Positions 801 to 22,201 of a DNA stretch of 22,610 nt are shown piece by piece. The number at the start of each line of letters is the position of its first letter. Within the stretch, counting starts at the first letter, position 1. The DNA is from Candidatus Desantisbacteria bacterium CG1_02_49_89. Its GTDB lineage: Bacteria; Desantisbacteria; UBA1551. The notes under the pieces are model-generated. The model was not told the DNA's origin, searched no databases, and saw only the letters and a program-made list of their open reading frames with translations. The stretch covers positions 1 to 22,610 of the forward strand of contig MNUP01000112.1 of assembly GCA_001871075.1 (NCBI GenBank), in the 5' to 3' direction. The position numbers were made by a program, and so were the translations under genes.

Positions 801-801
801 T

Positions 802-818
802 CAGTGTCCAGTGTCCAG
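802..818 (+). repeat. Heptamer tandem repeat CAGTGTC
   Basis: Two and a half copies of a 7-bp word directly after the stop codon of the barrel protein gene. It is the smallest member of the heptamer arrays that occupy most spacers in the window. Confidence 0.6.
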
Positions 819-820
819 AA

Positions 821-856
821 CGAGGTTGCTTCGCTTGCGGCTTCGTCTCGCAAAGA
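821..856 (+). repeat. Degenerate half of the GTCATTGCGAG palindromic element
   Basis: GAGGTTGCTTCG followed by TCTCGCAAAGAC resembles the right half of the MITE core at 22471-22507 (GAGATTGCTTCG ... CTCGCAATGAC). I read it as a decayed relic of the same repeat family. Confidence 0.5.
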
Positions 857-894
857 CATTTGTAAATCTATTTTGCGAAACTCAATAGAGTGTT

Positions 895-925
895 AACCCG
901 TTTCAATGGCGGGTTTTTTTCTTTT
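895..925 (+). terminator. Rho-independent terminator after the barrel protein gene
   Basis: Stem AACCCG (895-900) pairs with CGGGTT (910-915) across a 9-nt loop and runs into a T-rich tract up to 925. It separates the barrel protein gene from the promoter at 927-954. Confidence 0.8.
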
Positions 926-926
926 C

Positions 927-954
927 TTGACTTTTTATCAGGAAAGTGTATAAT
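927..954 (+). promoter_or_regulatory. Sigma70-type promoter for the receiver-histidine kinase gene
   Basis: TTGACT at 927-932 and a perfect TATAAT at 949-954 are separated by 16 bp. The expected transcription start is about 961, giving a leader of roughly 100 nt before the ATG at 1059. It lies immediately behind the terminator. The leader also contains the repeat relic at 973-1002. Confidence 0.75.
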
Positions 955-972
955 AGTAGAAGATCAGTTCTG

Positions 973-1002
973 GATTGCCACGCCCTTCGGGCTCGCAATG
1001 AC
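973..1002 (+). repeat. Degenerate half of the GTCATTGCGAG palindromic element in a 5' leader
   Basis: GATTGCCACG, a CCCTTCGGG hairpin, then CTCGCAATGAC. This is the reverse complement of the left half of the MITE core at 22425-22458 with a shortened middle. It would be transcribed in the leader of the kinase gene. Confidence 0.6.
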
Positions 1003-1058
1003 CTACAAACGGTCATCTTGTGAAAATCTAGTGTAATCTTGTGGTTTTAAGGGATAAA

Positions 1059-2225
1059 ATGGAAAGGGAACACATAAAAGTCCTGCTTGTAGAGGATAAT
1101 CCGGGCGATGCCAGGCTGATACAGGAAATGCTCAAAGAGGTGAAGGACGCGGATTTTGAGCTTGAGCAGGCAAGCAGGATATCCGAAGCCGTAAAGCGCG
1201 TTACAGGGAAAGGCATAGACGTGATCCTGCTGGACCTTTCGCTTCCTGACAGCGACGGCCTTGATACCTTTATAAGGGTCAGCGCGAAAGCAGGCGAAAT
1301 ACCCATCGTGGTCATGACCGGCCTTACCGACAGAACGCTTGCCATAAAAGCAGTGCAGGGCGGAGCCCAGGACTATCTTGTCAAGGGCACGGTGGACAGT
1401 AACCTGATTATCCATTCCCTGCGCTACGCCATAGAGCGCAAGAAAGCCGAGCTCAAGCTGAAGGAATTGCAGGAGCAGCTCGCGCAGGCTAACAAAATGG
1501 CCGCGGTCGGCACTCTTACCGGAGGCGTGGCGCACAGGATCAAGGACCCCCTCACTGTTATAATCACCAACATACGCATGATACGGGACCTGATCGAGAA
1601 AGAGAAGGAATCCATCAGTATTGAGGAGCTGCGCGTCATGGCGGAAAAAATTGATTCCGCCTCGGAGTTCGCTCAGAAAACAGTTTCCGACCTGTTCCTT
1701 TTCACGAGGGAATTCATGCTGGAAATGAAGCCGCTGGATGCCGTGGAAGTGATAGAGGGATCTGTTTCTTCTTTGAAAGGGACAGCCTTTGAAAAGATAA
1801 AAATAACCAGGAATTTTGAAAGCGGCCTGCCTGCGGTTTCCGGAAGCAGGGAAAAACTGGCACTGGCTTTTTCGCACATTATACAGAACGCGGTTGAGGC
1901 TATGCCCAGGGGCGGAACACTCGGGATCAAGGCGGTAAAAACGAAGGACGGTAACTGGGTCGAGATAAGCTTCCTGGACAGCGGATGCGGCATACCCGAG
2001 AAAAAACTCCAGAGCATATTCGAACCCTTCTTCACCACGAAAGAGCTTGGCACAGGCCTGGGGTTATCAATAACCCACGAAATAATCGCAAGGCACAAAG
2101 GCGCGATAGAAATCAAAAGCAGAAGTATGCGCAAGGCATCCGAAGATACCGACTGGTATAAAACCGAAGACCCGGAGCGAGGCACCACGGTTACGATCAG
2201 ATTACCAGTAACAAGTAACAAGTAA
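1059..2225 (+). CDS. Cytoplasmic hybrid: receiver domain plus histidine kinase
   Basis: Soluble two-component protein of 388 residues. Residues 6-125 form a receiver domain: acidic E12-D13, phosphoacceptor D59 in LLDLSLPDSDG, switch threonine T87 and K109 in YLVKG. A short helix (126-146) leads to the HisKA dimerisation box with H159 in GGVAHRIKDPLTV; the usual E after this H is R. The HATPase domain follows with N box HIIQNAVEAM, G1 DSGCGIP, F box FEPFFTTK and G2 GTGLGLS. No membrane segment or signal peptide is seen, so the input is probably phosphotransfer or a protein partner. I chose ATG 1059 over GTG 1041 because AAGGGA at 1049-1054 is a well-spaced SD. The last residues (VTSNK) are encoded by the TAACAAG heptamer array, which also supplies the stop. 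The membrane sensor kinase next door is a plausible phosphodonor (inference). Confidence 0.88.
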   Translation: MEREHIKVLLVEDNPGDARLIQEMLKEVKDADFELEQASRISEAVKRVTGKGIDVILLDLSLPDSDGLDTFIRVSAKAGEIPIVVMTGLTDRTLAIKAVQGGAQDYLVKGTVDSNLIIHSLRYAIERKKAELKLKELQEQLAQANKMAAVGTLTGGVAHRIKDPLTVIITNIRMIRDLIEKEKESISIEELRVMAEKIDSASEFAQKTVSDLFLFTREFMLEMKPLDAVEVIEGSVSSLKGTAFEKIKITRNFESGLPAVSGSREKLALAFSHIIQNAVEAMPRGGTLGIKAVKTKDGNWVEISFLDSGCGIPEKKLQSIFEPFFTTKELGTGLGLSITHEIIARHKGAIEIKSRSMRKASEDTDWYKTEDPERGTTVTIRLPVTSNK

Positions 2226-2237
2226 CAAGTAACAAGT
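2208..2237 (+). repeat. Heptamer array GTAACAA x4 overlapping the kinase 3' end
   Basis: Four perfect 7-bp units. The first two lie inside the coding sequence and the stop TAA is part of the third unit. Confidence 0.85.
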
Positions 2238-2246
2238 TTAATTTCA

Positions 2247-2328
2247 ATTATGAATTATGAGTTATGCCCCAAGGGGCATTATGAATCAACAGCATGAATT
2301 TTATTGTAACTCAGGGCTTCAGCCCTGA
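2247..2328 (+). repeat. Composite palindromic repeat, copy 1
   Basis: Order of parts: ATTATGA heptamers (2247-2263), palindrome ATGCCCC-AA-GGGGCAT (2264-2279), a linker containing AATTTTATTGTAACTC, then palindrome TCAGGGCT-TC-AGCCCTGA (2311-2328). An almost identical copy in inverse orientation lies at 6118-6196; related parts recur at 21050-21118 and 22204-22340. Confidence 0.85.
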
Positions 2329-2403
2329 TGTATCTAAACAGTGTTCACCTGTGGTTTCAAAGGCAGTTGTCAGTTATCAGTTGTCAACAAAAGCCAATAA
2401 TTT

Positions 2404-2427
2404 CTCTGTGTCTCCGTGCCTCTGTGG
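2404..2427 (+). repeat. Octamer array CTCTGTGN just upstream of a start codon
   Basis: Three 8-bp units (CTCTGTGT, CTCCGTGC, CTCTGTGG) followed by TAAAGAAT and the ATG of the membrane kinase. The same word occurs at 7060-7083 and inverted at 21020-21043. Confidence 0.8.
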
Positions 2428-2435
2428 TAAAGAAT

Positions 2436-4184
2436 ATGAAAAAGTATATAATTGTAATCCTGCTGTTAACGCTCTCAGGCGTTTTCCTTCCGTGTTTTGC
2501 CTCTGCGAAAACCATAAAAGTCGGGTTGTACCAGAACAAACCGCTTATATTCACCGAAAAGAACGGTGATGAAAGCGGTTTTTATATTGATATCCTTAAA
2601 TACATCGCCAAAAAAGAAGGATGGGAACTGCAATACGTGCGGGGTTCCTGGCAGGAATGCGCGCAGAGGCTACAGGGCGGCGAGATAGACGTACTTGCCG
2701 GCGTTCCATATTCCAAGGAAACCGCGGGAAAATATCTTTTCGCGAATGTCCCGATACTTTCGAACTGGGCGCAGGTTTACACGCTCAAGAATTCCAGGAT
2801 CCAGACGATAATTGACCTGGATAAAAAAACAGTGGCTGGAGTCAAGAACGACATTTATTTCGAAGACCTGAAATCGCAGATCGAGATGCTTTGCCCTACC
2901 TGCAATATAATAGAAATGGAAGATAACGACGCGGTGTTCAATTTCCTGAGCCAGCAGTTTTCCGACGCCGGGATCACGGATGTCCTTTACGGGATGAAGC
3001 ACGAAAGGGAATACGGGCTGGCAGGCGTTTCCATAGTGTCTTCGCCCAAAGAGCTTTATTTCGCCATCCCCTTGAACGGGGACGTGAGGATAATAACCGT
3101 CCTGGACAAGCACCTTTTTGATTTGAAGAATAACGATAATTCCGTGTATCACAGGTCGCTGGACAGGTGGCTCGGAGGCGTGGGCAGGTGGACATTCCCC
3201 GTGTGGCTGGTAGCTATCCTTGTTCTCGCGGGAACGATGCTGGCAATGTTCCTGTTCATGAACAACATACTGAGGCAGCAGGTTCTTGGAAAAACAAACG
3301 AGCTCCTTAAGGTGAACAAGGCGCTGGAGGAGGAAATAAAGGAGCGCAAGTGGGCGCACGACAAGCTGTCCGAGACCCTTATGGACATGGAAAAAAGGAT
3401 AAGGGAAAGAACTTCCGAGCTTTCGCAGTCAAACGAGCTTCTGAAAAAAGAGGTGGCTGAGCGCAGGTTGGCAGAGGAGAAGCTGCAGCAGGCAATGAAT
3501 GACCTTTCACGCTCCAACAGGGAACTCGAACAGTTCGCTTATGTTGTTTCCCACGACCTGAAAGAGCCCCTGAGGATGGTCACAAGCTACCTCCAGCTCC
3601 TTGAGCGCAGGTACAAGGGAAAGCTTGATAAGGACGCGAAGGAATTCATAGATTTTGCCAAAGACGGCGGGAAAAGGATGGAGACGCTTATAGAAGACCT
3701 GCTTTCATATTCGCGGCTCGACACTTTCAGTAAAAGGTTTGAGCAGGTTGACTGCAACGCCATCGTGGACGGCATACTTGATGTCCTCGGGATCGCAATA
3801 GAAAAAAACAGGGCGGAGGTTACGCGCGATCCCCTGCCGGGTGTTATCGCGGACAAGACCCAGCTTGGCCAGGTCTTTCAGAACCTTATCAGCAACGCGC
3901 TTAAATTCCGCAGCAAAAAACCTCCCGCCATTCATGTGGGCGCGCAGCGCGTGGAAGGGGAGTGGCTTTTTAGGATTTCGGACAACGGCATCGGCATAGA
4001 TCCCAAAGACGCGGAACGCGTTTTCGTGATATTCCAGCGCCTTCACTCAAGGGATGAATACCCGGGCACGGGTGTGGGGCTTGCCATATGCAAGAAAATA
4101 GTTGAATATCACGGGGGGAAGATATGGATTGAGTCAGAACCGGGCAAGGGCTCAACGTTTTGCTTTACAATACCGGACAGGTGA
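2436..4184 (+). CDS. Membrane sensor histidine kinase with periplasmic SBP_bac_3 domain
   Basis: A 582-residue BvgS-like sensor without receiver or Hpt domains. A signal peptide (about 1-24, hydrophobic IIVILLLTL, ending ASA) precedes a periplasmic solute-binding domain of the SBP_bac_3 type (about 26-245: IKVGLYQNKPL, GFYIDILKYIAKK, VAGVKNDIYF). One membrane helix spans about 254-278 (FPVWLVAILVLAGTMLAMFL). A long charged coiled coil (about 280-365) leads to HisKA with H373 in VVSHDLKEPLR and HATPase motifs QNLISNALKF, DNGIGI and GTGVGLAI. ATG 2436 is chosen because the signal peptide starts there; the frame is open upstream to 2328 only through repeat DNA. No strong SD is visible. The ligand is probably a small polar solute such as an amino acid (family knowledge); the output partner is unknown, and the receiver-kinase upstream is a candidate. 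Confidence 0.9.
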   Translation: MKKYIIVILLLTLSGVFLPCFASAKTIKVGLYQNKPLIFTEKNGDESGFYIDILKYIAKKEGWELQYVRGSWQECAQRLQGGEIDVLAGVPYSKETAGKYLFANVPILSNWAQVYTLKNSRIQTIIDLDKKTVAGVKNDIYFEDLKSQIEMLCPTCNIIEMEDNDAVFNFLSQQFSDAGITDVLYGMKHEREYGLAGVSIVSSPKELYFAIPLNGDVRIITVLDKHLFDLKNNDNSVYHRSLDRWLGGVGRWTFPVWLVAILVLAGTMLAMFLFMNNILRQQVLGKTNELLKVNKALEEEIKERKWAHDKLSETLMDMEKRIRERTSELSQSNELLKKEVAERRLAEEKLQQAMNDLSRSNRELEQFAYVVSHDLKEPLRMVTSYLQLLERRYKGKLDKDAKEFIDFAKDGGKRMETLIEDLLSYSRLDTFSKRFEQVDCNAIVDGILDVLGIAIEKNRAEVTRDPLPGVIADKTQLGQVFQNLISNALKFRSKKPPAIHVGAQRVEGEWLFRISDNGIGIDPKDAERVFVIFQRLHSRDEYPGTGVGLAICKKIVEYHGGKIWIESEPGKGSTFCFTIPDR

Positions 4185-4192
4185 CGTGTAGC

Positions 4193-4281
4193 CGCAAGCT
4201 TCAGCTTGCGTCCACAAGTTAAAAGTCAAATTGTCCCTAAGGGATTCCTGCGTTTAGATTTAATAAGAAATCTGCAGGAAT
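4193..4281 (+). repeat. Cluster of three palindromes after the sensor kinase
   Basis: CGCAAGCT-TC-AGCTTGCG at 4193-4210, TCCCTAAGGGA at 4234-4244, and a larger hairpin 4244-4281 in which ATTCCTGC pairs with GCAGGAAT and AGATTT pairs with AAATCT. None is followed by a T-tract, so they look like repeat elements rather than terminators. Confidence 0.65.
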
Positions 4282-4319
4282 AAATTGCAAAATGTAAATT
4301 TTAAATACAAAAAGAAACA

Positions 4320-4350
4320 GGGCGGGATTTCCCCGCCCTTTTTATTTTTT
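4320..4350 (+). terminator. Strong terminator between convergent genes
   Basis: Perfect stem GGGCGGG (4320-4326) / CCCGCCC (4332-4338), 5-nt loop, then TTTTTATTTTTT. It ends the sensor kinase transcript. On the minus strand the same stem is followed by a weaker T-rich run, so it may also act on the permease transcript. Confidence 0.88.
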
Positions 4351-4351
4351 A

Positions 4352-4378
4352 ACCGGCTGACCGGCTGACCGGCAGACC
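4352..4378 (+). repeat. Octamer array ACCGGCTG
   Basis: Three 8-bp units (ACCGGCTG twice, then ACCGGCAG) between the terminator and the 3' end of the minus-strand permease gene. Confidence 0.75.
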
Positions 4379-4382
4379 AACG

Positions 4383-6041
4383 CTATTTCCATTCATACTG
4401 TTCGAGGAATTTAAGCCCGTTTTTGAGGGGATTGAAGGTGACATAAAAGGTGAGGAGCAGGGTGCCTGCCACCGAGATCCAGGCTTCAAGGTTATAAGTC
4501 TGTTTGAAGCCGGCGATGAACAGAAGGAACTGCACTGCCTGCCTGTCAAGAAGGAATATCATCAGGCCCACGTAACCGAGAGCAAAGACCATATACATTA
4601 TCCCGCCGTATGAACCGCCTACCTCAGCAGGATTCTTAGCCTTAAATTTGGGATAGCTCGCTCCCATGCCGACAGCCAGGCCCGTAAGCCCGAGCGTTAT
4701 CAGGAAGACCGCGAACATGCCGGTAAAAAATATTTCCCGGTTTACTTTTAATAATATGCCGGATGTGATCACAAGCACTTCCCCGAGTGCAAGTAAAGGG
4801 ATATAACTCGTCCAGAACTTTTCAGCAAGAAGGGTTTTCATCGGGTACGGCGCGGCTTTCAGGAGCCAGAATCCCTTTCCTTCAAGTGAGATCGCGGGAA
4901 ACGAGAAACGCACGCCTGTCGCGGCTATCACGAAACCGGCGAAACCAAGGTTTATAAAGGATATCAGCACGGTGGAAGATGTCTGAAGCCTGAAAGATTT
5001 AAGGTTGAACATGTAGATCACGCCTATTGCAAGGAAGAGGAATATCTGCGACCACTGGGACACATCCCGCCAGAAAAGTCGCAGATCCCTAAGGAGCAGG
5101 ACGTTGAACATTGATCTCGTGCCCAGCAGTTTTTCAAGCATAAGGAACCTTACAGGCCGTCCGCTTACCTTGTTAAGGGATTTAGTCCAGCTTTCGTAAT
5201 ATATTTTTTCCGCGACCCACTTGCAGAAAACGTATGACGCGCCGGCAGAGCTTAGGAGCATTAGGAAATAAAAGAGCATGTCGGTCGGTTTGCCCCTTAT
5301 CGTGTTGAGGAAAAGGGTGGAAACCCAGTAACTCGGAAGATATGTGGAACTGGGCCCTTTCAGGAAGGTCAGGTAATCCGCAAGCGCGGAAAACCCTTCG
5401 GGGTTGGCCAGCCTTTCCGGCTGCAGGAACCTGAAATAGATCACCAGCACGGCTGCCAGGGCAATACTTATGAAAAGCGTTATTTCCTTTATCCTTTTCA
5501 CGGGATAAACCCTGATCAGCAGCATTGTGAGCATCACGCCGGCACCCGCGGGTATTACCAGGAAGGGAAGCAGGAACACGGGGATAAGCGGGTAAAAAAA
5601 CCAGCTGCTTTTAAGGATTATCCCGTAGGCGAGGAACACGGGTATGCCGAAGAAAAGCACGGCCCACGAGCTCTGCAGGACAGTTTCGAAAAACTTTGAG
5701 GCGAAAATGGATTCCACCCGCAGGGGGCTTGAAAAAAGGAAATGCAGGTCGTTTGATAGGTAATACGTGGAAATAGCCGTAATGACGTTTGAAAAAACAA
5801 GCATCATCAGGAACGTGAGGAATATTATGAAAAGCAGTTTTTCGATAAGGATAGGGCCTATGATTTCAAAGGAATAGAGCCTTGTGAGCAGCCAGTGGAA
5901 CATGAAATAGACGCCCGCAACGAAGGCTAATCCCAGCACCGAGAAAGCGTAAGTCCGCAGCCTGCTTTCCTTCGAAATGCGCGCCGCGGTATTTCTGATG
6001 CCGGCCCAGTAGTTGCGTATAAGCTCGATTGTTTCGTGCAT
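4383..6041 (-). CDS. ABC-2-type exporter permease
   Basis: Integral membrane protein of 552 residues with about twelve hydrophobic segments, for example YAFSVLGLAFVAGVYFMF near residue 30, a pair around 60-95, and a C-terminal group ending EAWISVAGTLLLTFYVTF. The cytoplasmic stretch SSPLRVESIFASKFFET matches the coupling region seen in large ABC-2 permeases paired with a separate ATPase. It is the last gene of the minus-strand cluster, 146 nt after the ATPase gene, and should form the transporter with it. The start ATG lies inside a heptamer array (ATGCACG units), with no clear SD; no better methionine follows nearby, so the N-terminus is uncertain by a few residues. The exported substrate cannot be told from sequence; lipid, peptide or surface polymer are all possible. 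Confidence 0.8.
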   Translation of the reverse strand: MHETIELIRNYWAGIRNTAARISKESRLRTYAFSVLGLAFVAGVYFMFHWLLTRLYSFEIIGPILIEKLLFIIFLTFLMMLVFSNVITAISTYYLSNDLHFLFSSPLRVESIFASKFFETVLQSSWAVLFFGIPVFLAYGIILKSSWFFYPLIPVFLLPFLVIPAGAGVMLTMLLIRVYPVKRIKEITLFISIALAAVLVIYFRFLQPERLANPEGFSALADYLTFLKGPSSTYLPSYWVSTLFLNTIRGKPTDMLFYFLMLLSSAGASYVFCKWVAEKIYYESWTKSLNKVSGRPVRFLMLEKLLGTRSMFNVLLLRDLRLFWRDVSQWSQIFLFLAIGVIYMFNLKSFRLQTSSTVLISFINLGFAGFVIAATGVRFSFPAISLEGKGFWLLKAAPYPMKTLLAEKFWTSYIPLLALGEVLVITSGILLKVNREIFFTGMFAVFLITLGLTGLAVGMGASYPKFKAKNPAEVGGSYGGIMYMVFALGYVGLMIFLLDRQAVQFLLFIAGFKQTYNLEAWISVAGTLLLTFYVTFNPLKNGLKFLEQYEWK

Positions 6042-6066
6042 CGTGCATCGCCCGTCTTGCGTCGTT
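6035..6066 (-). repeat. Heptamer array over the permease start codon
   Basis: On the plus strand the units read CGTGCAT, CGTGCAT, CGCCCGT, CTTGCGT. The first unit contains the permease start codon (CAT at 6039-6041 on the plus strand). Confidence 0.65.
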
Positions 6067-6080
6067 AAATCCCTTTCTTT

Positions 6081-6099
6081 CCCCCTTTGATAAAGGGGG
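6081..6099 (+). repeat. Palindrome CCCCCTTT-GAT-AAAGGGGG
   Basis: Perfect 8-bp stem with a 3-nt loop, followed by ATTAGAGGGGGATTTTTTT. It is a dispersed-repeat style palindrome inside the ATPase-permease spacer. Confidence 0.7.
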
Positions 6100-6117
6100 A
6101 TTAGAGGGGGATTTTTT

Positions 6118-6196
6118 TCAGGGCTGAAGCCCTGAGTTACAATAAAATTCCTTCATTCATAATGCCCCTTGGGGCATAACTCATAATTTATAATTG
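6118..6196 (-). repeat. Composite palindromic repeat, copy 2 (inverted)
   Basis: Reverse-complement copy of 2247-2328: palindrome TCAGGGCT-GA-AGCCCTGA (6118-6135), linker GAGTTACAATAAAATTC, palindrome ATGCCCC-TT-GGGGCAT (6162-6177) and the heptamer arm. It overlaps the 3' end of the ABC ATPase gene and encodes its last residues. Confidence 0.85.
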
Positions 6197-6910
6197 AGAG
6201 TTTGGTTTTGTTAGTTGTAAGAACACGTCTTCAAGTTCGCCGGTCCTGCCCATCGAGACTATTTCCTTCGTGGTACCGAGGGCTATAAGGTTTCCATTGT
6301 TTATTATGCCTATCCTGGTGCAGATGTCCTGCGCGAGGTCCAGCGTGTGGGTGGACATGAATATCGTAAGCCCACCTGAAGCGCTGTCCCTGAACAATTC
6401 CTTCACGAGCCTTATGCTCTTGGGGTCAAGCCCCACCATTGGCTCGTCAACCAGGATGACTTTGGGGTCGTGCAGGAAACAGGCGCCCATAACGAGTTTC
6501 TGGCACATCCCGTGCGAGTAGCTTTCTATCAAGTCATCCCTGTACTGTATAAGTTCGAACATCCGCAGGTATCTATCGATTTTCGGGCCGGGATCCTCCA
6601 CGCGGTAAAGGTTCGCGGCAAACTGAAGGAATTCCATGCCTGTGAGTTTGGGGTAGAGGAAGGGCTGGTCAGGGATGTAACCGATCAGTTTTTTGGCTTC
6701 GATCGGATCCTCCTGGATATCGAACCCGGAAACAATAGCCTTTCCTTCGGTGGGCTTGAGCAGGCCTGTAAGCATTTTGATCGTGGTTGTCTTGCCGGCG
6801 CCGTTCGGGCCAAGGAACCCGAATATCTCGCCTTTTCCTATTTCCAGGTTCAGATTATTGACCGCGGTGATCCTGTCAAATTTTTTTACCAGATTGATTG
6901 TTTTTATCAT
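6188..6910 (-). CDS. ABC transporter ATP-binding protein
   Basis: Cytoplasmic ATPase of 240 residues that would drive the permease encoded next. It shows Walker A GPNGAGKTT, Q-loop region IGYIPDQPFLYPKLTG, signature YSHGMCQKL (a variant of LSGGQ common in ABC-2 exporters of this type), Walker B VILVDEPMVGLDP and the switch histidine in STHTLD. I chose the ATG at 6908-6910 because AGGAG (minus strand, 6916-6920) lies 5 nt upstream; an in-frame ATG 30 nt earlier falls in AT-rich repeat DNA. The C-terminus (NSQL) runs into the composite repeat. It sits between the transglutaminase-like gene (179 nt upstream) and the permease, in the same orientation, so one transcript is likely. Confidence 0.9.
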   Translation of the reverse strand: MIKTINLVKKFDRITAVNNLNLEIGKGEIFGFLGPNGAGKTTTIKMLTGLLKPTEGKAIVSGFDIQEDPIEAKKLIGYIPDQPFLYPKLTGMEFLQFAANLYRVEDPGPKIDRYLRMFELIQYRDDLIESYSHGMCQKLVMGACFLHDPKVILVDEPMVGLDPKSIRLVKELFRDSASGGLTIFMSTHTLDLAQDICTRIGIINNGNLIALGTTKEIVSMGRTGELEDVFLQLTKPNSQL

Positions 6911-6925: not shown

Positions 6926-6963
6926 ATTAACAATTAACAATTTAAAATTTACAATTTAAAATG
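6926..6963 (-). repeat. Heptamer array ATTAACA/ATTTAAA x5
   Basis: Five 7-bp units (ATTAACA twice, then ATTTAAA, ATTTACA, ATTTAAA) directly upstream of the ATPase SD. Confidence 0.7.
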
Positions 6964-7001
6964 AAGGAATTTATTTGTATCTTGAATTTAGTAAAAAATC
7001 T

Positions 7002-7083
7002 GTGGTAATCCGTGTAAATCCGTGGTTAAAAGGCAGTCATTTGTAAAACCCGATAAATTCTCTGTGCCTCTGTGCCTCCGTGG
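7002..7083 (+). repeat. 10-mer and 8-mer arrays (GTGGTAATCC; CTCTGTGC)
   Basis: Three 10-bp units at 7002-7030 (GTGGTAATCC, GTGTAAATCC, GTGGTTAAA) and three 8-bp units at 7060-7083 (CTCTGTGC twice, CTCCGTGG). The second array is a copy of the word at 2404-2427 and abuts the stop codon of the transglutaminase-like gene. Confidence 0.75.
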
Positions 7084-8586: not shown

Positions 8587-8626
8587 TTTTAATCCTTGAT
8601 TTTGTGTTTTTGCGGAAAGTTTTACT

Positions 8627-8654
8627 TTTGACCTTTGAGCTTTGACCTTTGAGC
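8627..8654 (-). repeat. Heptamer array TTTGACC/TTTGAGC in the transglutaminase leader
   Basis: Four 7-bp units alternating TTTGACC and TTTGAGC, forming a perfect 14-bp tandem duplication. It lies in the predicted 5' leader of the minus-strand transcript. Confidence 0.85.
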
Positions 8655-8674
8655 TGATTTCAAATATAGATATT

Positions 8675-9961: not shown

Positions 9962-10069
9962 GTCGAGCGTCGTAAGTCGTGCGCAAAAGCTTAAAATTTA
10001 TTACGTACGACGTAAGACGCACGACATTCGACGTGGGACGTACGACGTAAGACGTCCGACGTATGACGG
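9962..10069 (+). repeat. GTNNGAC heptamer hairpin element, copy 1
   Basis: Left arm: three units GTCGAGC, GTCGTAA, GTCGTGC then GC (9962-9984). AT-rich loop to about 10004. Right arm: nine consecutive 7-bp units (10005-10067), every one ending in GAC, for example GTACGAC, GTAAGAC, GTCCGAC, GTATGAC, then GG. Right units are reverse complements of the left type, so the spacer can form an imperfect hairpin. A second copy with the same plan is at 12448-12525. Confidence 0.85.
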
Positions 10070-10250: not shown

Positions 10251-10253
10251 TAC

Positions 10254-10288
10254 AGTGGCCAGTGGCGAGTGGTCAGTGGATAGCGGGC
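10254..10288 (+). repeat. Heptamer array AGTGGNN coding the ComF N-terminus
   Basis: Units AGTGGCC, AGTGGCG, AGTGGTC, AGTGGAT and a decayed AGCGGGC. The array contains all candidate GTG starts of the ComF-like gene. Confidence 0.8.
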
Positions 10289-11025: not shown

Positions 11026-11035
11026 TTTTGTAATA

Positions 11036-11092
11036 GTTTAAAGGATTAAAGGTTCTATGGCTAAAAACCATTAAACCGTTAATCCGTTAATC
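11036..11092 (+). repeat. Octamer hairpin array GATTAAAG / CGTTAATC
   Basis: Left units GTTTAAAG and GATTAAAG (11036-11051), a loop, then right units CATTAAAC, CGTTAATC, CGTTAATC (11069-11092), which are near reverse complements of the left ones. It fills the comF-lysC spacer up to the lysC SD. Confidence 0.75.
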
Positions 11093-12373: not shown

Positions 12374-12408
12374 CACGAAAACACGAAAGTGTCACGAAAG
12401 CACGAAAA
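12374..12408 (+). repeat. Octamer array CACGAAAA/CACGAAAG
   Basis: Four 8-bp CACGAAAR units with a 3-nt interruption, 9 nt after the lysC stop codon. Confidence 0.75.
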
Positions 12409-12447
12409 AAGTCTTTTTTCACAGTGATTTAAAGAGATTTAGATTCC

Positions 12448-12525
12448 GTCTTACGTCGTAAGTCGTACGTCGTTCGCAAATGATTTTAATAATACGTAAG
12501 ACGTTCGACGCATGACGCATGACGG
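12448..12525 (+). repeat. GTNNGAC heptamer hairpin element, copy 2
   Basis: Left arm: GTCTTAC, GTCGTAA, GTCGTAC, GTCGTTC then GC (12448-12477). AT-rich loop AAATGATTTTAATAATAC. Right arm: GTAAGAC, GTTCGAC, GCATGAC, GCATGAC then GG (12496-12525). The plan (GTC-first arm, GC, AT-rich loop, GAC-last arm, GG) is the same as at 9962-10069, though unit number and variable bases differ. Confidence 0.85.
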
Positions 12526-12557
12526 CATTATGAATCCCGCTGAATCCCTGTTAAATT

Positions 12558-12623
12558 TCTCAGTGAACTCAGTGCCTTCAATGGCAAAAGTTTTTTGTGC
12601 CTTCGTGGTAAAGAATCGGTGGT
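12558..12623 (+). repeat. Leader words CTCAGTGAA and GTGCCTTCGTGGTAAAGAAT before apgM
   Basis: CTCAGTGAACTCAGTG near 12558 resembles 22341-22360. GTGCCTTCGTGGTAAAGAAT just before the apgM ATG matches the sequence before the sensor kinase ATG (2417-2435), which suggests the repeat word can carry the translation start region. Confidence 0.6.
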
Positions 12624-13865
12624 ATGAAATATATCGTGCTTGTAGGCGACGGGATGGCGGATTATCCCCTGAAAGAGCTGAAGCGCAGGACACCGCTTGA
12701 AGCCGCCGGGATAAAAAATCTGAATTATTTCGCGCGGGCCGGGACCCTGGGCCTTATAAGAACGACGCCGCGCGGGATGACGCCGGGAACGGATGTCGCG
12801 AACCTCGCGATACTCGGTTACGACCCGCAAAGATATTATAGCGGCAGGGGCCCGCTTGAAGCCCTGAACCAGGGAATAAGGTACGGCAGGCAAGATATAA
12901 TATTCAGATGCAACCTTGTGACGGCGGCAAACGGGAAGCTTATTGACTACAGCGCCGGGCATGTCACAAGCGAAGAGGGAAAAGAGCTGTTCAGGGCACT
13001 TAACAGGGAGATAGGAACAGGTTCTTTGAAATTCTTTCCGGGTGTCAGCTACCGCAACCTGGCGCTCCTAAAAAAGCCCGCCGGCCTTGCGTCCCTGCTT
13101 TCCCTGAGGACGCATCCTCCGCACGACGTGATGGGAAAAAAGTTTTCCGTGATCTTCCCGAAAGGAAAAGGCGCGGGGATGCTGATCGGCCTGATGGAGA
13201 GGTCAAGGGAAATACTTGAAACGCATCCGGTCAATGCCAGGAGAAAAAGGCATGGGAAAGGTCCCGCCAACATGATCTGGCTGTGGGGCCAGGGCACAAG
13301 ACCGGAGATGCCGTCCTTTTACAGGAAATACGGCCTGAAGGGTGCGGTAATATCGGCGGTCGACATAGTCAAGGGCATAGGCAGGGCAACCGGGATGGAG
13401 ATAATAGACGTGCCGGGTGCGACAGGATACTTCGACACGGACTACGAAGGGAAGGCAAGATACGCGCTTAAAGCTCTGAAGAAAAACGATCTTGTTTTTG
13501 TGCACGTTGAGGCGCCTGATGAGGCGGGGCACAACGGTGACATTAAAGCAAAGATAAAGGCGATAGAGGATTTTGACCGAAAGGTCGCGGGCACAGTGTT
13601 AAAAGGGATAGGTGCATACGGCAACTATAAGATACTGGCGCTTACAGACCATCCCACACCCATTTCGTTAAGAACTCATGCTCCGGACCCGGTTCCTTTC
13701 GCAATATTCAAAAATGGGGATAATAAAAGAGGGAAGGCGGGTTTTAACGAGCGGGACGCGAAAAAAAGCAGGCTGTTCTTTAATAAGGGTCATAAGCTGA
13801 TGGAGTTTTTCCTTAAAAACACCCTCACCCCGGCCCTCTCCCCTCGAGGGAGAGGAATAAGGTGA
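12624..13865 (+). CDS. apgM: Cofactor-independent phosphoglycerate mutase, archaeal type
   Basis: Interconverts 3- and 2-phosphoglycerate in glycolysis/gluconeogenesis. 413 residues of the alkaline-phosphatase superfamily: metal-binding VGDGMAD (8-13), PLEAA, the nucleophile region TPGTDVANLAILGYDP (T56), and the C-terminal metal site HVEAPDEAGHNGD plus LTDHPTPISLRTHAPDPVPF. This ApgM class is typical of archaea and scattered bacterial phyla. ATG 12624 is fixed by the conserved N-terminus; the region before it is repeat DNA with only a weak GGTGG. The last residues (LTPALSPRGRGIR) are encoded by a palindromic repeat, so the native protein probably once ended near MEFFLK. It precedes gap-pgk-tpiA in the same direction. 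Confidence 0.94.
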   Translation: MKYIVLVGDGMADYPLKELKRRTPLEAAGIKNLNYFARAGTLGLIRTTPRGMTPGTDVANLAILGYDPQRYYSGRGPLEALNQGIRYGRQDIIFRCNLVTAANGKLIDYSAGHVTSEEGKELFRALNREIGTGSLKFFPGVSYRNLALLKKPAGLASLLSLRTHPPHDVMGKKFSVIFPKGKGAGMLIGLMERSREILETHPVNARRKRHGKGPANMIWLWGQGTRPEMPSFYRKYGLKGAVISAVDIVKGIGRATGMEIIDVPGATGYFDTDYEGKARYALKALKKNDLVFVHVEAPDEAGHNGDIKAKIKAIEDFDRKVAGTVLKGIGAYGNYKILALTDHPTPISLRTHAPDPVPFAIFKNGDNKRGKAGFNERDAKKSRLFFNKGHKLMEFFLKNTLTPALSPRGRGIR

Positions 13866-13868
13866 GGG
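13822..13868 (+). repeat. Palindromic repeat CCCTCACC...GGTGAGGG inside the apgM 3' end
   Basis: Outer arms CCCTCACC (13822-13829) and GGTGAGGG (13861-13868) enclose an inner CCTCTC / GAGAGG stem centred on CTCGAG. It has entered the reading frame of apgM and supplies its stop codon (TGA 13863-13865). Confidence 0.8.
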
Positions 13869-13884
13869 GGAATCCCGAGATTAG

Positions 13885-14919: not shown

Positions 14920-14936
14920 CTCTTTTACAAGAGCTA
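14917..14936 (+). other. Hairpin overlapping the gap stop codon
   Basis: TAGCTCTT (14917-14924) pairs perfectly with AAGAGCTA (14929-14936) over a 4-nt loop; the stop codon TAG is the first base triplet of the stem. No T-tract follows, so it is more likely an mRNA 3'-end or processing structure than a terminator. Confidence 0.6.
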
Positions 14937-14937
14937 A

Positions 14938-15031
14938 ATTATGAATTATGAATGATGAATTATGAATCAACGGCAAGGTTTTTATTTAAAATAAAACTCC
15001 TTCACTCATAACTCATAATTCATAACTCATA
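14938..15031 (+). repeat. Inverted-arm heptamer array between gap and pgk
   Basis: Left arm: four 7-bp units ATTATGA (one ATGATGA) at 14938-14965. Right arm: ACTCATA, ACTCATA, ATTCATA, ACTCATA at 15004-15031, reverse complements in a shifted phase. The 38-nt loop contains a smaller AT palindrome (GTTTTTATTT / AAAATAAAAC). It forms one long potential hairpin in the intercistronic mRNA. Confidence 0.8.
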
Positions 15032-15061
15032 ACTAATCCTTTATTGATTTTGGGGGTTTTT

Positions 15062-16243
15062 ATGGCAAAGTTAGGCGTGGAAGACCTTGACATGGCGGGT
15101 AAAAATGTTTTGATCCGCGTTGATTTCAACGTCACGCAGGACAAGGAAGGCAAGATAACGGACGATACGAGGATCAAGGCAAGTGTTCAGACCATTAAAT
15201 ACTGCGTTGACAAGGGCGCGAAGGTTATTTTGATGTCACACCTCGGCAGGCCTGAGGGCAAGGTCGTTGAGTCCATGCGGCTTACGCCGGTGGCAAAAAG
15301 GCTGGGTGAACTACTCGGTAAGAAGATCGCCAAAACGGAAGATTGCGTGGGCCCGGACGCGGAAAAGGCAGTGTCCGCGATGAAGAACGGGGACGTTCTT
15401 CTGCTGGAGAACCTGCGCTTCCATCCCGAGGAGGAAAACAACGCCGAGGATTTCAGCAAGAAGCTCGCGAAACTGGGTGACCTGTATGTTAACGACGCTT
15501 TCGGGACAGCGCACAGGGCGCACTCTTCCACTGTTGGCGTGGCAAGGCTCCTTCCGTCAGCCGCGGGGTTCCTCATGAAAAAGGAAATTGAGGTGCTGGG
15601 CAAAATACTTGAGGAGCCTGACAAGCCCTTTGCCGCGGTCCTGGGCGGGGCAAAAGTTTCCACAAAAATAGGGGTTATCAAAAATCTGCTTCCCAGGGTT
15701 TCCTTCCTTCTCATAGGCGGTGCGATGGCATACACGTTCCTTAAGGCGATCGGGGAAGAAGTCGGCAACTCTAAGATAGAGGAAGACAAATTAGGTCTGG
15801 CAAGGGACCTGATACTGGGTGATTCTGAGTCGAAAATACACCTTCCCATCGACCACGTTGTCGCAAAGGAGATCAGAGAGGGCGCTCAGATGGAGGAGAC
15901 CGGGGGCAGGGCGATACAGAACGGCTGGATAGGCGTTGACATAGGCCCGAAGACCGTTGCGGAATACAGGCAGGTAATATCGAAATCAAAAACAGTGTTT
16001 TGGAACGGTCCGATGGGGATATTCGAGGTAGACGCTTTCGCTAAGGGGACCGTGGAAATAGCGAAGGCAATGGCGGAAAGCGGCGCCGTGACCGTAATAG
16101 GGGGCGGGGATTCTGTTTCAGCGGCCGCGAAAGCTGGAGTGAGCGACAAAATAACTCACATTTCGACTGGCGGAGGCGCAAGCCTCGAGCTGCTGGAAGG
16201 GATAACGCTTCCGGGCATCGCCGCGCTTTCAGAAAAAAAGTGA
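15062..16243 (+). CDS. pgk: Phosphoglycerate kinase
   Basis: Transfers phosphate from 1,3-bisphosphoglycerate to ADP, making ATP. 393 residues: N-terminal substrate domain with LIRVDFNVTQD, SHLGRPEG and LLLENLRFHPEE; hinge and nucleotide domain with LGGAKVSTKIGVI, FWNGPMGIFE and VIGGGDSVSAA. ATG 15062 fits the family N-terminus (MAKLGVEDLDMAGKNVLIRVDFN) better than the in-frame ATG at 15044; GGGGG at 15052-15056 is a weak SD at a suitable distance. Second gene of the glycolytic cluster, 142 nt after gap; the spacer is filled by the inverted heptamer array. Confidence 0.97.
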   Translation: MAKLGVEDLDMAGKNVLIRVDFNVTQDKEGKITDDTRIKASVQTIKYCVDKGAKVILMSHLGRPEGKVVESMRLTPVAKRLGELLGKKIAKTEDCVGPDAEKAVSAMKNGDVLLLENLRFHPEEENNAEDFSKKLAKLGDLYVNDAFGTAHRAHSSTVGVARLLPSAAGFLMKKEIEVLGKILEEPDKPFAAVLGGAKVSTKIGVIKNLLPRVSFLLIGGAMAYTFLKAIGEEVGNSKIEEDKLGLARDLILGDSESKIHLPIDHVVAKEIREGAQMEETGGRAIQNGWIGVDIGPKTVAEYRQVISKSKTVFWNGPMGIFEVDAFAKGTVEIAKAMAESGAVTVIGGGDSVSAAAKAGVSDKITHISTGGGASLELLEGITLPGIAALSEKK

Positions 16244-16310
16244 TTACAGTGATTATAAATTAGATTACAGTGATTATTTCTAAATTATCATGATTAACTT
16301 TATATAATCA
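16242..16310 (+). repeat. GATTACAGTGATTAT direct repeat with inverted TAATCA partner
   Basis: GATTACAGTGATTAT occurs at 16242-16256 (starting in the pgk stop codon) and 16263-16277. TATATAATCACCGG at 16301-16314 is inverted relative to GTGATTATA. The rest of the spacer, 16315-16390, shows no clear signal except another ATCACCGTAATCA near 16377-16389. Confidence 0.6.
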
Positions 16311-16400
16311 CCGGAATTCGTCGTTTGTCGACATAGCCCACAAAGAATGTTGCGAAGCAAAGATCATCAGTTAAAATCACCGTAATCAATGGAGGAATAA

Positions 16401-17190: not shown

Positions 17191-17214
17191 GTCAAAAGTC
17201 AAAGGTCAAAAGTG
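17191..17214 (+). repeat. Heptamer array GTCAAAA x3
   Basis: Units GTCAAAA, GTCAAAG, GTCAAAA, then GTG, in the tpiA-rpsU spacer. Confidence 0.8.
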
Positions 17215-17296
17215 AATGCTGTAATTTGATTTTAATCAGTACTGGATCAGCGAAAATCAGCGTCAAATTCATTTTTTAGAGAAGGGGGCGATTAGT

Positions 17297-17987: not shown

Positions 17988-18053
17988 GTTGAACGTTAAA
18001 AGTTGAAGGTTGAAGGTTGAAGGTTAAAGGTTAAACTCTCAACCTTAATTTTC
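17988..18053 (+). repeat. Heptamer array GTTGAAG x7 with inverted arm
   Basis: Units GTTGAAC, GTTAAAA, GTTGAAG (three times), GTTAAAG, GTTAAAC at 17988-18036, then TCTCAACCTTAATTTTC, the reverse complement of the unit type. It fills most of the yqeY to Nif3-like spacer. Confidence 0.85.
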
Positions 18054-19067: not shown

Positions 19068-19070
19068 AAG

Positions 19071-20042: not shown

Positions 20043-20061
20043 AAACAGTTTACAAAGTTGA

Positions 20062-20107
20062 CAAGTTTATAAAGTTTTAAGTTATATTTCTAAACTTCGT
20101 AAACTTG
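20062..20107 (+). repeat. Hairpin with inverted AAGTTTA arms before dppC
   Basis: CAAGTTTA-ta-AAGTTT (20062-20077) pairs with AAACTT-cg-TAAACTTG (20092-20107), 14 bp with one 2x2 mismatch and a 14-nt AT-rich loop. The upstream GTTTACAAAGTTGAC (20049-20063) continues the same 8-9-bp word. It ends 7 nt before the dppC ATG and takes the place of an SD. Confidence 0.75.
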
Positions 20108-20114
20108 AAAAAAA

Positions 20115-20966
20115 ATGAAAAAAACAAAAGCCGGGAGTTTCTGGGGAAGGTTCAAGAGGAACAAGCTGGGCGTTGCCGGAGCCATCATTGTTGCCTCGCT
20201 CTTTGTTGTCTATTTCCTGGTGCCGTTCATATCTCCTCATGACCCTAACGCCCAGGACCTTTCAAATAGGTTTACGCCCCCGAGCCTTCATTCCGCGAAT
20301 CCACTCGGAACTGATGAGCTGGGCAGGGACTTACTGAGCAGGATCTTATGGGGCCTTAGGATCTCGATAAAAGTCGGGTTCGCGGCGGTCGCGATATCCA
20401 TTCTCATAGGCACCATTCTGGGCGCTATTTCCGGGTATTACGGCGGCTGGGTGGACGGGCTTATAATGCGGCTTGTGGACATAATGATGTGTTTCCCGGA
20501 TTTCTTCCTGATACTGATGGTTATAGCGATGCTTGAGCCGAACATCAACTATGTAATGATCGTGATAGGCCTTGTGAGCTGGCCGGGAGTTACCAGGCTT
20601 GTGCGAGCCGAATTCCTGAAGCTTAAAAAGCAGGATTTCGTCCAGGCGGCGAAGGCGTCCGGTTTAAGCGACGCGAGGATAATATTCAGGCATATACTGC
20701 CTAACGCGCTTTACCCGGTTTTTGTGGCCGCGACGCTTGGGATCGCGTCCGCTATACTGGTTGAATCAGGCTTGAGTTTCCTGGGGTTGGGCGTTCAGCC
20801 GCCCACAGCTTCGTGGGGCAACATACTGACAAGCGGGAAAGATTATCTTCTCCAGCACGTATGGTGGCTGAGCTTCTTCCCGGGATGCGCCATTTTCATC
20901 ACAGTCCTGGCATACATTATGCTGGGGGAAGGGCTGAGGGATGCTTTAGATCCGCGCTTGAAATGA
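20115..20966 (+). CDS. dppC: Peptide/nickel ABC transporter permease (DppC type)
   Basis: 283-residue partner permease of DppB. An N-terminal cytoplasmic stretch (SFWGRFKRNKLGVAGA) precedes the first membrane helix, followed by ISPHDPNAQDLSNRFTPPS and LGTDELGRDLLSRILWGLRIS, the hallmark of DppC/OppC. Five further helices and the EAA loop DFVQAAKASGLSDARIIFRHILPNALYP follow. The ATG is preceded by A-rich DNA and a hairpin, without SD. Length is normal. Same operon as dppB (72 nt spacing). Confidence 0.93.
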   Translation: MKKTKAGSFWGRFKRNKLGVAGAIIVASLFVVYFLVPFISPHDPNAQDLSNRFTPPSLHSANPLGTDELGRDLLSRILWGLRISIKVGFAAVAISILIGTILGAISGYYGGWVDGLIMRLVDIMMCFPDFFLILMVIAMLEPNINYVMIVIGLVSWPGVTRLVRAEFLKLKKQDFVQAAKASGLSDARIIFRHILPNALYPVFVAATLGIASAILVESGLSFLGLGVQPPTASWGNILTSGKDYLLQHVWWLSFFPGCAIFITVLAYIMLGEGLRDALDPRLK

Positions 20967-20975
20967 GCGCAAGTT

Positions 20976-21010
20976 AAAATGCAAAATGTAAAATGTAAAA
21001 GTCAAAATTA
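20976..21010 (+). repeat. Heptamer array AAAATGT x5
   Basis: Units AAAATGC, AAAATGT, AAAATGT, AAAAGTC, AAAATTA, just after the dppC stop. Confidence 0.8.
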
Positions 21011-21019
21011 GAAGCTCAA

Positions 21020-21043
21020 CCACAGAGACACAGAGGCACAGAG
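21020..21043 (-). repeat. Octamer array CTCTGTGN, inverse orientation
   Basis: Plus-strand units CCACAGAG, ACACAGAG, GCACAGAG are the reverse complement of the word at 2404-2427 and 7060-7083. Confidence 0.8.
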
Positions 21044-21049
21044 TTTCTG

Positions 21050-21118
21050 TAACTCAAACCTTCAGGTTTGATATCAGGGCTAAAGCCCTGAGTTACTCCA
21101 AAGGAGTCCCTTTGGGAC
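21050..21118 (+). repeat. Chain of compact palindromes before dppD
   Basis: TCAAACCT-TC-AGGTTTGA (21054-21071), TCAGGGCT-AA-AGCCCTGA (21074-21091), ACTCC-AAA-GGAGT (21095-21107) and GTCCC-TTT-GGGAC (21106-21118). The last two share two bases, so they could pair only alternately. The same parts recur at 22204-22340. Confidence 0.8.
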
Positions 21119-21137
21119 AATAAATTCCTTGTTTTGG

Positions 21138-21168
21138 ATTCATAATTCATAACTCATAATTCATAATT
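21138..21168 (+). repeat. Heptamer array ATTCATA x4 before the dppD start
   Basis: Units ATTCATA, ATTCATA, ACTCATA, ATTCATA, the same word as the right arm at 15004-15031. It ends about 10 nt before the dppD ATG. Confidence 0.8.
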
Positions 21169-21176
21169 GGAAATAT

Positions 21177-22139
21177 ATGGAAAAGTTGCTGGAAATCAAT
21201 AACTTAAAGACTTATTTTAACACTGCCGAGGGAATAGTGAGGGCGGTGGACGGCGTTGATCTTTCCGTGGGAGCCGGCAGAACGCTAGCGCTCGCGGGCG
21301 AATCCGGATGCGGCAAGAGCGTGACCGCCCTATCTGTCCTGAGGCTTGTCCAGCATCCGGGTAAAATAGTTGGCGGAGAAATTATTTATAAGGGCTCTGA
21401 ACTTCTGAAGCTTTCAGAGGACGGGATAAGGAAGATCAGAGGCAAAGAGATATCAATGATATTCCAGGACCCTTTTACCTCGCTCAACCCGGTTTTCACG
21501 GTGGGAAACCAGATAGAGGAGGCTATAAAAGTCCATATCCCCGGAAGCGCGAAAAACCGGGAAGCCGCAAGAAGGGCGGTGGAAATGCTTTCGCTTGTTG
21601 AACTGCCTTCCCCGGAAAACATCTACCATTACTATCCGCACCAGCTTAGCGGTGGCATGCAGCAGCGCGCGATGATAGCGATGGCGCTTGCCACAAACCC
21701 ATCCCTGCTGATAGCTGACGAGCCTACCACAGCCCTGGACATAACCATACAGGCGCAGATACTGGACCTGCTGGAAAGGCTGAGGCAGAAATTCAACATG
21801 AGCGTGATGCTTATAACGCATAACCTGGGCATAATAGACAGGATAGCTGACGATGTTGCCATAATGTACCTGGGCAGGATCATGGAATGCTCGGAGAAGA
21901 ATGAGTTTTTCAAAACCCCCCTTCATCCTTATACGAGGGGATTACTCGACGCGGTCCCGAAGATCAGGGAAAAGAAAAAACTGTACGTAATACCCGGCAG
22001 CCTGCCTTCGCCGCTTGAGATCCCGCAGGGATGCAGGTTCAATCCCAGGTGCGAGAAGAAAATGGAGATATGCGGCAGGGAAGAGCCCGCTCTTAAAGAG
22101 ATATCGCCGGGGCATACGTGCAGGTGCTGGTTGTATTAA
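21177..22139 (+). CDS. dppD: Peptide/nickel ABC transporter ATPase (DppD type)
   Basis: 320-residue ATPase for the DppBC permease: Walker A GESGCGKS, Q-loop FQDPFTSLNP, signature LSGGMQQRAMIA, Walker B LLIADEPTTALD and switch H in LITHNLG. The C-terminal oligopeptide-transporter extension contains PLHPYTRGLLDAVP and a Cys cluster C286, C292, C299, C315 (plus C317), a spacing seen in DppD/OppD proteins; in a mycobacterial DppD this region was reported to bind an iron-sulfur cluster, from memory. Only weak SD-like bases (TTGGA) precede the ATG. The partner ATPase DppF usually follows; here the gene is followed by at least 470 nt of repeats to the window edge. Confidence 0.95.
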   Translation: MEKLLEINNLKTYFNTAEGIVRAVDGVDLSVGAGRTLALAGESGCGKSVTALSVLRLVQHPGKIVGGEIIYKGSELLKLSEDGIRKIRGKEISMIFQDPFTSLNPVFTVGNQIEEAIKVHIPGSAKNREAARRAVEMLSLVELPSPENIYHYYPHQLSGGMQQRAMIAMALATNPSLLIADEPTTALDITIQAQILDLLERLRQKFNMSVMLITHNLGIIDRIADDVAIMYLGRIMECSEKNEFFKTPLHPYTRGLLDAVPKIREKKKLYVIPGSLPSPLEIPQGCRFNPRCEKKMEICGREEPALKEISPGHTCRCWLY

Positions 22140-22161
22140 ATACAGTGGTCAGATTAACTTC

Positions 22162-22201
22162 GTGTCAGCGTGTCAACGTATCAACGTGTCAACGCAACAA
22201 C
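22162..22201 (+). repeat. Octamer array GTGTCAAC x5
   Basis: Units GTGTCAGC, GTGTCAAC, GTATCAAC, GTGTCAAC, GCAACAAC, 22 nt after the dppD stop. First element of the gene-free stretch 22140-22610, in which I see no coding sequence, only repeats. Confidence 0.8.

Follow-up and report, generated by a model that had tools for sequence, protein, structure and literature searches.

The window analysed here is a stretch of 22,610 nucleotides, the whole of contig C42 of the genome of Candidatus Desantisbacteria bacterium CG1_02_49_89 (2.48 Mb in 150 contigs; the genomes searched include one relative of the same order), and its subject is the short, degenerate tandem arrays that lie in the spacers between protein-coding genes, gap, pgk and tpi among them. 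Tandem Repeats Finder places arrays at essentially all the positions listed in a preliminary description of this DNA, with the periods given there (starts at 802, 2207, 2364, 4352, 6034, 6925, 6996, 7060, 8627, 10003, 10253, 11065, 12374, 12455/12507, 14937, 15004, 17191, 17988, 20976, 21138 and 22161), and adds two more, at 20047 (9-mer) and 21021 (8-mer); the arrays at 2208 and 6035 touch or overlap the ends of open reading frames (ORFs). Each array is very probably an arm, or the whole of a gene-less hairpin, of a small mobile element whose complete form carries a gene of either the S23 or the GxxExxY family. Those genes sit elsewhere in the genome; none lies within the window, whose arrays must accordingly be gene-less hairpins or solo arms. 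There is no rRNA in the window either.

The arrays are a feature of the genome at large. In 908 kb of it (469 spacers, 107 kb in all; genes were taken from a simple ORF caller), exact repeat runs of at least 10 bases in spacers come to 90, 83 and 53 at lags 7, 14 and 21, as against 1.6, 0.8 and 0.4 in dinucleotide-preserving shuffles (ten were made) and 5.9, 4.6 and 3.0 in an equal amount of coding DNA. This is a comparison of the kind that the preliminary description had proposed, and the arrays are, as it held, not chance low complexity. Runs at lags 8, 9 and 10 are also enriched, more weakly than at lag 7 (36, 10 and 14), while lags 4-6 in the same spacers are not enriched. An array is present in 59% of co-directional spacers. 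(A technical note: runs at lags 7, 14 and 21 are also seen in S23-rich genomes; the S23-free comparison set comes to 3 kb of spacers and no claim is built on the contrast.)

The preliminary description held that the word differs each time, and here it needs amending: words recur in dispersed families, one period to a family, among them AATTATG (7), ACGACGT (7), ACACAGAG/ACACGGAG (8), AACGTGTC (8), AAACTTTGT (9), AATCCGTGNN (10) and many rarer ones. Its inverted-arm plan holds up well: neighbouring AATTATG-type arrays are ordered as word followed by reverse complement in 33 of 34 cases, 44-151 bp apart, making a dispersed hairpin of about 100 bp whose loops contain other, nested palindromes. 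One complete, gene-less copy lies between gap and pgk (14937-15037; folded as 14935-15040 it is far more stable than its shuffles, z = -7.0), and stable hairpins are predicted by folding for elements of the window. The AATTATG arms are imperfect: heptamers in register are identical at a rate of 0.345, compared with 0.510 in arms shuffled between copies (36 hairpins), and selection on perfect pairing, of the kind that generates RNA covariation, thus finds no support. The in-register mismatch involves A/G at position 2; it looks as though exact palindromes were disfavoured.

S23 and GxxExxY genes between inverted arms

What do the arrays belong to? A profile search for PF13366 (GxxExxY, PDDEXK_3) over 192 genomes found genes placed exactly between pairs of arrays that an earlier pattern search had picked out (G087 C232, G002 C51 and G190 C119), and PF05635 (S23, the protein of the 23S rRNA intervening sequence, IVS) was therefore examined: in unrelated genomes its genes are surrounded by inverted heptamer arrays, with a new word at every locus. 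(Another technical note: the CACNGAG pattern is nearly the same pattern when reversed, so its reversed form is of no use as a control. The octamer pair and PF13366 tend to be present together, odds ratio 11.5, p = 4e-7.) Scored within 250-bp flanks at a fixed score, arrays accompany 21 of 23 S23 loci (16 of them with period 7) and 15 of 23 GxxExxY loci (with period 8, 9 or 10, and in no case 7); GapA genes, the control, have one at 4 of 28. Inverted 9-mers common to both flanks average 9.3 for S23, 11.2 for GxxExxY and 0.64 for GapA. No such signal is left 600 or 1200 bp away from these genes: period 7 appears at 1 and 2 of 23 S23 loci, and the inverted 9-mers fall to 0.3-0.9. With the loci oriented and a slightly looser score, period 7 is found at 21 of 27 S23 loci, and periods 8, 9 and 10 at 9, 7 and 5 of 23 GxxExxY loci. 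The protein family, in other words, goes with the length of the word. GxxExxY words look alike among loci (C-R-C-N-R-A-K-like). Left arms are purine-rich relative to the ORF in both families (24 of 30 and 34 of 44 arrays at the GxxExxY and S23 loci L208-L267, respectively).

The elements encode no recognised transposase, only S23 or GxxExxY. At least 85% of GxxExxY proteins conserve the D and E-x-K of PD-(D/E)XK nucleases, in accord with the Pfam PDDEXK_3 match; GxxExxY has no known role as a transposase. An AlphaFold model of GxxExxY was too poor to use (mean pLDDT 47). S23 is a small four-helix bundle with solved relatives (2GSC and 2RLD). S23 matches the model of Avd, the accessory protein of diversity-generating retroelements, weakly and below its cut-off (E 5.5e-8; 33 bits, cut-off 80). 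Relatives of GxxExxY were not found in viral contigs, nor S23 in phages.

Individual words cross phyla. Other genomes contain the exact 23-mer of window positions 21021-21043 in no fewer than 117 stretches, the titles of which include Alpha-, Beta- and Gammaproteobacteria, Acidobacteria, Planctomycetes, Gemmatimonadetes, Bacteroidetes, Chlamydiae, Spirochaetes, Nitrospinota, Chloroflexi, Bacillota and the archaeon Methanosaeta; the genomes being binned, single cases may be misassigned. Most of these 23-mers serve as the left arm in a hairpin, ACCACAGAGRCACAGAGGCACAGAG - loop - CTCTGTGYCTCTGTGYCTCTGTGGT, whose loops are unrelated from case to case, and at four of the loci a GxxExxY gene adjoins the array.

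The Desantisbacteria genome itself has about ten S23 genes (one is a split pseudogene and another is truncated where a contig ends), together with five GxxExxY genes, and words of the window recur beside them: AGTGGTC, GTCGTNN, AAATTGT, GGTTRAA and CGTGTCAR beside S23, and CACRGAGR, CACGGATNNA and GATTACAGT beside GxxExxY. Thirteen of the 29 arrays of the window have a word of at least 13 bases in common with the flanks of these genes, compared with a mean of 1.7 and a maximum of 3 in 60 draws of 15 elements each from other genomes; a few of the matches fall in neighbouring spacers rather than in arms (that of 16239 in L294, for example).

Among arrays with matches at S23 loci, the hairpin with GTCGTNN/NNACGAC heptamer arms at 9963-10068 (folding z -4.3) has 13- and 18-mers in common with the S23 element C39, and a second copy of its family at 12443-12524 has an 18-mer in common with the same element. 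The GGTTRAA array at 17988-18045, with its short inverted tail, has a 20-mer in common with the arms of the S23 pseudogene C125; the CGTGTCAR octamers at 22161-22201 have a 15-mer in common with the left arm of C25, the AAATTGT-type heptamers at 6927-6962, of S23 type, a 14-mer with the arms of C6, the AGTGGNN heptamers at 10253-10279 a 13-mer with those of C96, and the GTCAAAN heptamers at 17191-17216 an 11-mer with C6.

Among arrays with matches at GxxExxY loci, the GxxExxY-type CTCYGTGY octamer right arm at 2404-2428 contains a 25-mer identical to the right arm of C114a, with which the CACAGAGACACAGAGGCACAGAG octamer left arm at 21021-21043 (+) has a 19-mer in common and the CTCYGTGC octamer right arm at 7060-7082, also GxxExxY-type, a 15-mer. 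The CAGTTRT array at 2364-2386, the reverse complement of the published TAACTGA heptamer (PMC4679880), has a 14-mer in common with the sequence upstream of C114b; the AATCCGTGNN decamers at 6996-7025, a GxxExxY-type right arm, are of the word type of C114b, the common word being only a 10-mer. The GATTACAGT nonamer element between pgk and tpi (16239-16390) has a word that flanks C45 and also lies in the accA spacer (L294). The CACGAAA array at 12374-12407 (period 8-10) is tentatively assigned here, on the resemblance of its word to CACGAATT of C56.

Filled, empty and exchanged junctions

S23 elements are polymorphic in their insertion and form series of decay. On conjugative plasmids of Nostocales, Tolypothrix PCC 7601, Nostoc linckia and Nostoc carneum have one junction empty (AAAGTTAAAAAGTAATTAACAAATAA); in Trichormus ATCC 29413 the same junction reads ...AAAAAGTAAT / AAATCAGAATTCAGAAGTCAG... 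S23 ...CTGACTCCTGAGTTCTTCTTT / GTAATTAACAAATAA, where some 430 bp have been inserted and GTAAT stands at both sides, the flanks of the empty and full records being about 97-98% identical. In Scytonema NIES-4073 this element is shorter by two heptamers. What is left of it in Nostoc C052 is the left arm together with the beginning of the S23 gene, and in Brasilonema the word forms a short hairpin without the gene. A second junction is full in Nostoc C052 and N. edaphicum, occupied by a gene-less hairpin in ATCC 53789 and empty in C057; further filled/empty pairs are found at cas10-cmr3 (filled in PCC 7003, empty in PCC 7002), cas6-cas4 and nrdB-nrdA.

GxxExxY elements are likewise swapped and likewise decay. 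One junction in a four-species genus has the full element in G130, an internally deleted copy in G192 and, in G193, another GxxExxY element with a different word. In the same-order relative of the Desantisbacteria genome (G001) the gap-pgk hairpin is absent, and a TGACAAA heptamer hairpin stands in the pgk-tpi spacer in place of the GATTACAGT element. (Two congeners, compared over 180 kb, were too rearranged for a clean indel comparison.) Orthologous spacers of relatives, then, exhibit turnover and not arrays fixed in place. The preliminary description had suggested an active process that makes or spreads period-7 DNA: the spreading stands, since array sites differ among close relatives; the random making does not, the variety of words arising because there are many element families. 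What it missed is the agent: the arrays are very probably the inverted arms of small elements with an S23 (mainly period 7) or a GxxExxY (8-10) gene, or of their gene-less derivatives.

The S23 elements inside CRISPR operons (at cas6-cas4 and cas10-cmr3; L337, L335, L363) are probably passengers rather than CRISPR components, and the published association of the 23S rRNA intervening-sequence protein with CRISPR (PMC10910872) may reflect passenger insertion. At cas6-cas4 Anabaena sp. 90 has an S23 element and Dolichospermum UHCC 0315A another hairpin (GTAGGTTGGGTTG ... CAACCCAACCTAC, L339:1020-1270), with flanks that are 99% identical.

Mechanism, rival explanations and known relatives

A complete element is some 430-600 bp long, an outer inverted pair of tandem-word arms around one small ORF: with S23, a word mostly of 7 bases that is specific to the locus; with GxxExxY, a period of 8, 9 or 10. 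Elements insert between genes, often within operons, and swap in and out of junctions; their arms change in copy number by whole words, presumably growing by slippage, and loss of the ORF leaves hairpins or solo arms. The encoded protein would recognise the arms, whether in the form of DNA or folded as an RNA hairpin, thereby helping both its own element and the gene-less copies to spread. For GxxExxY a nuclease step is plausible; for S23, binding of the hairpin as RNA or as single-stranded DNA. One can go further, to a proposition that we consider evenly balanced between right and wrong: S23 and GxxExxY would each be the mark of a class of minimal mobile element, the two classes being parallel, without a known transposase and spread over bacteria and one archaeon or more. 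Word length (7 or 8-10) would then depend on the protein family, and the element-specific words would serve the protein as "addresses" for mobilising its own element and gene-less hairpins, the 23S rRNA IVS being the member inserted in rRNA.

Several considerations weigh against the mobile-element reading. About half of the window's arrays have no clear cognate, and AATTATG, the commonest word here, is without a gene-carrying copy in the sequence examined. One S23 element of this genome, C55, has its arms in direct rather than inverted order. The empty-site cases are mostly from cyanobacterial plasmids, a target duplication (GTAAT) can be made out at just a single site, and a precise absence could in principle be a deletion. 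Mobility is read from the comparison of sequences, as a role for the proteins would also be, and S23 has no known catalytic activity.

Might a different enzyme move the elements, either a reverse transcriptase or a Y1/HUH transposase that works on the hairpins? Such a helper would preserve the element and change only its motor; it is unlikely, without being far-fetched. S23 is distantly related to Avd, at the weak level already noted, and S23 and Y1_Tnp co-occur over the 192 genomes (odds ratio 6.4, p = 1e-7), a co-occurrence that may reflect tolerance of mobile DNA. Dependence on reverse transcriptase was rejected as unsupported: 46 of 70 S23 genomes lack a PF00078 reverse transcriptase, and 10, including G094 with its ten S23 genes, lack Y1_Tnp, so neither is a general requirement (drafts may miss genes). 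The Y1 genes of the Desantisbacteria genome, moreover, have inverted ends of another, non-tandem kind. These genes, RAYT-like (resembling the transposases associated with repetitive extragenic palindromes, REP) and located on contigs C114 (L271:4869-5201), C100 (L031) and C13 (L013), are bracketed by ends such as GGGGACGGGTTC ... GAACCCGTCCCC and constitute a third one-gene, inverted-arm type.

It is much less probable that slippage and hairpin template switching by the host make arrays and inverted arms in any spacer that tolerates them, and that the S23 and GxxExxY genes simply happen to land beside these. Arms do vary by whole heptamers (L338 vs L371), and heptamers are the most frequent class of simple sequence repeats in many bacteria, with polymerase slippage proposed as their source (PMC4679880, PMC4692102). 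Slippage of this kind leaves unexplained, however, 1) that the period tracks the protein family, 2) that arrays lie within about 280 bp of the genes and not further, 3) that about 430 bp were gained cleanly at a junction that is empty in 98% identical plasmids, and 4) that identical words occur across phyla. Least probable of all is that the arrays are sites for a global regulator or an RNA-binding protein, kept by selection on expression, as the repeats of Geobacter and Beggiatoaceae have been read: they do lie near stops and starts, and for Geobacter metallireducens paired sites on opposite strands have been described as those of a global regulator (PMC2700814), but the word varies by locus even where the protein family is the same, a site may be empty, reduced to a remnant or swapped in a close relative, and no link to gene function is seen. 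Single array copies might possibly have been domesticated.

The mobile-element interpretation finds its nearest relative in the 23S rRNA IVS. In Coxiella burnetii this carries an S23 ORF between inverted terminal repeats, and the number of its heptamers varies from strain to strain (PMC4990558); the likeness to the elements described here, whose gene-carrying copies in this genome have the S23 ORF, extends to the length of about 430 nt, a long stem formed by the terminal inverted repeats, tandem heptamers (which in Coxiella precede the ORF) and a patchy, horizontal distribution. The S23 class resembles an rRNA IVS placed outside rRNA. It differs in occupying spacers between protein genes (also in cas and nrd operons) instead of a 23S helix, in having arrays on both sides and abundant gene-less copies, and in involving no rRNA excision.

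The preliminary description's comparison with the short tandemly repeated repetitive (STRR) sequences of cyanobacteria was apt: these too are degenerate 7-bp units in spacers, and arrays of this sort accompany S23 loci in cyanobacteria. The TAACTGA repeats of Beggiatoaceae, cyanobacteria and Bacteroidetes, for whose distribution across phyla "no mechanism is evident" (PMC4679880), are similarly intergenic, heptameric and patchy, and the window has an array of their type at 2364; published as of unknown origin, repeats of both sorts have a counterpart here that is tied to an ORF-carrying mobile element. The cyanobacterial STRRs, the TAACTGA repeats and the Coxiella IVS heptamers all fit in the same class. 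GGGAATC-type heptamers of Xanthomonas and Nostoc (PMC4692102) and, in G. metallireducens, paired TCTCCGTS repeats and MTYCTGA heptamers called regulator sites (PMC2700814) are again heptamer or octamer arrays, some in inverted pairs, and the Geobacter class 2 repeat, TCTCCGTS, resembles the GxxExxY word; they have been read as G-quadruplexes or regulator sites, with no connection made to S23 or GxxExxY. Short non-coding copies with inverted ends common to a gene-carrying element (L372 and L375 included) recall miniature inverted-repeat transposable elements, and short palindromic, non-autonomous copies beside a gene-carrying form recall REP/RAYT. Unlike both, the present elements have no DDE or HUH transposase, have arms built of tandem words, and come in many word families per genome; their arrays bracket S23 and GxxExxY rather than a Y1 transposase.

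No account of free-standing S23 or GxxExxY genes tied to such arrays was found in the literature searched, which includes few subscription papers and no preprints, and an earlier description is possible. The same literature yielded no match for CACAGAG words; one paper mentions GxxExxY in passing, unconnected with repeats, and we could find no parallel there for the GxxExxY class. The mobile-element reading would offer a single explanation for repeats recorded over decades in cyanobacteria, Beggiatoaceae, Geobacter and others; two common protein families without an assigned function ("four helix bundle protein" and "GxxExxY protein") would acquire a setting; the rRNA IVS would be extended to a general class of spacer elements; and the binding of words by proteins and the movement of gene-less hairpins become concretely testable.

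Remaining arrays and other repeats of the window

Cognates were not found for the solo heptamer arrays CAGTGTC (802-818; longest word in common 7) and GTAACAA (2207-2237; longest 10), for the ACCGGCTG octamers at 4352-4378, or for the heptamers CGTGCAT (6034-6050) and TTTGANC (8619-8655). The dispersed AATTATG family contributes a left arm at 2246-2330, with nested palindromes CCCCAAGGGGCATTATG and CAGGGCTTCAGCCCTG, a composite element at 6118-6200 (-), inverted relative to it, and an ATTCATA right arm at 21138-21168. There remain a short hairpin at 11035-11092 (TTTAAAGGATTAAAGG ... AAACCGTTAATCCGTTAATC), the CTCAGTGAA nonamers of a dispersed family at 12557-12580, a AAGTTTACA nonamer hairpin at 20047-20105 and AAAATGT heptamers at 20976-21008.

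Other repeats are interspersed with the arrays. The palindromic module CAGGGCTNNAGCCCTG(AGTTAC), at 2312, 6119, 21075 and 22221, is often nested in array hairpins; it has 86 two-strand matches (about 43 copies) in the 908 kb and no gene partner has been identified. Further palindromic inserts and dispersed repeats are CCCTCTCCCCTCGAGGGAGAGG, at an ORF end, and CCCCCTTTGATAAAGGGGGATTAGAGGGGG (window 13830-13870 and 6070-6113). The module GAATTCGTCGTTTGTCGACATAGCCCACAAAGAATGTTGCGAAGCAAA lies inside the pgk-tpi element (16311-16360) and, inverted, beside the GxxExxY gene C17 (L017, upstream of 2671), which points to nested insertion. Positions 22374-22610 hold a direct repeat (GTGTGGTG... TTGTCATTGCGAGCGACCAAAG), a dispersed element that probably broke the assembly at this end of the contig.

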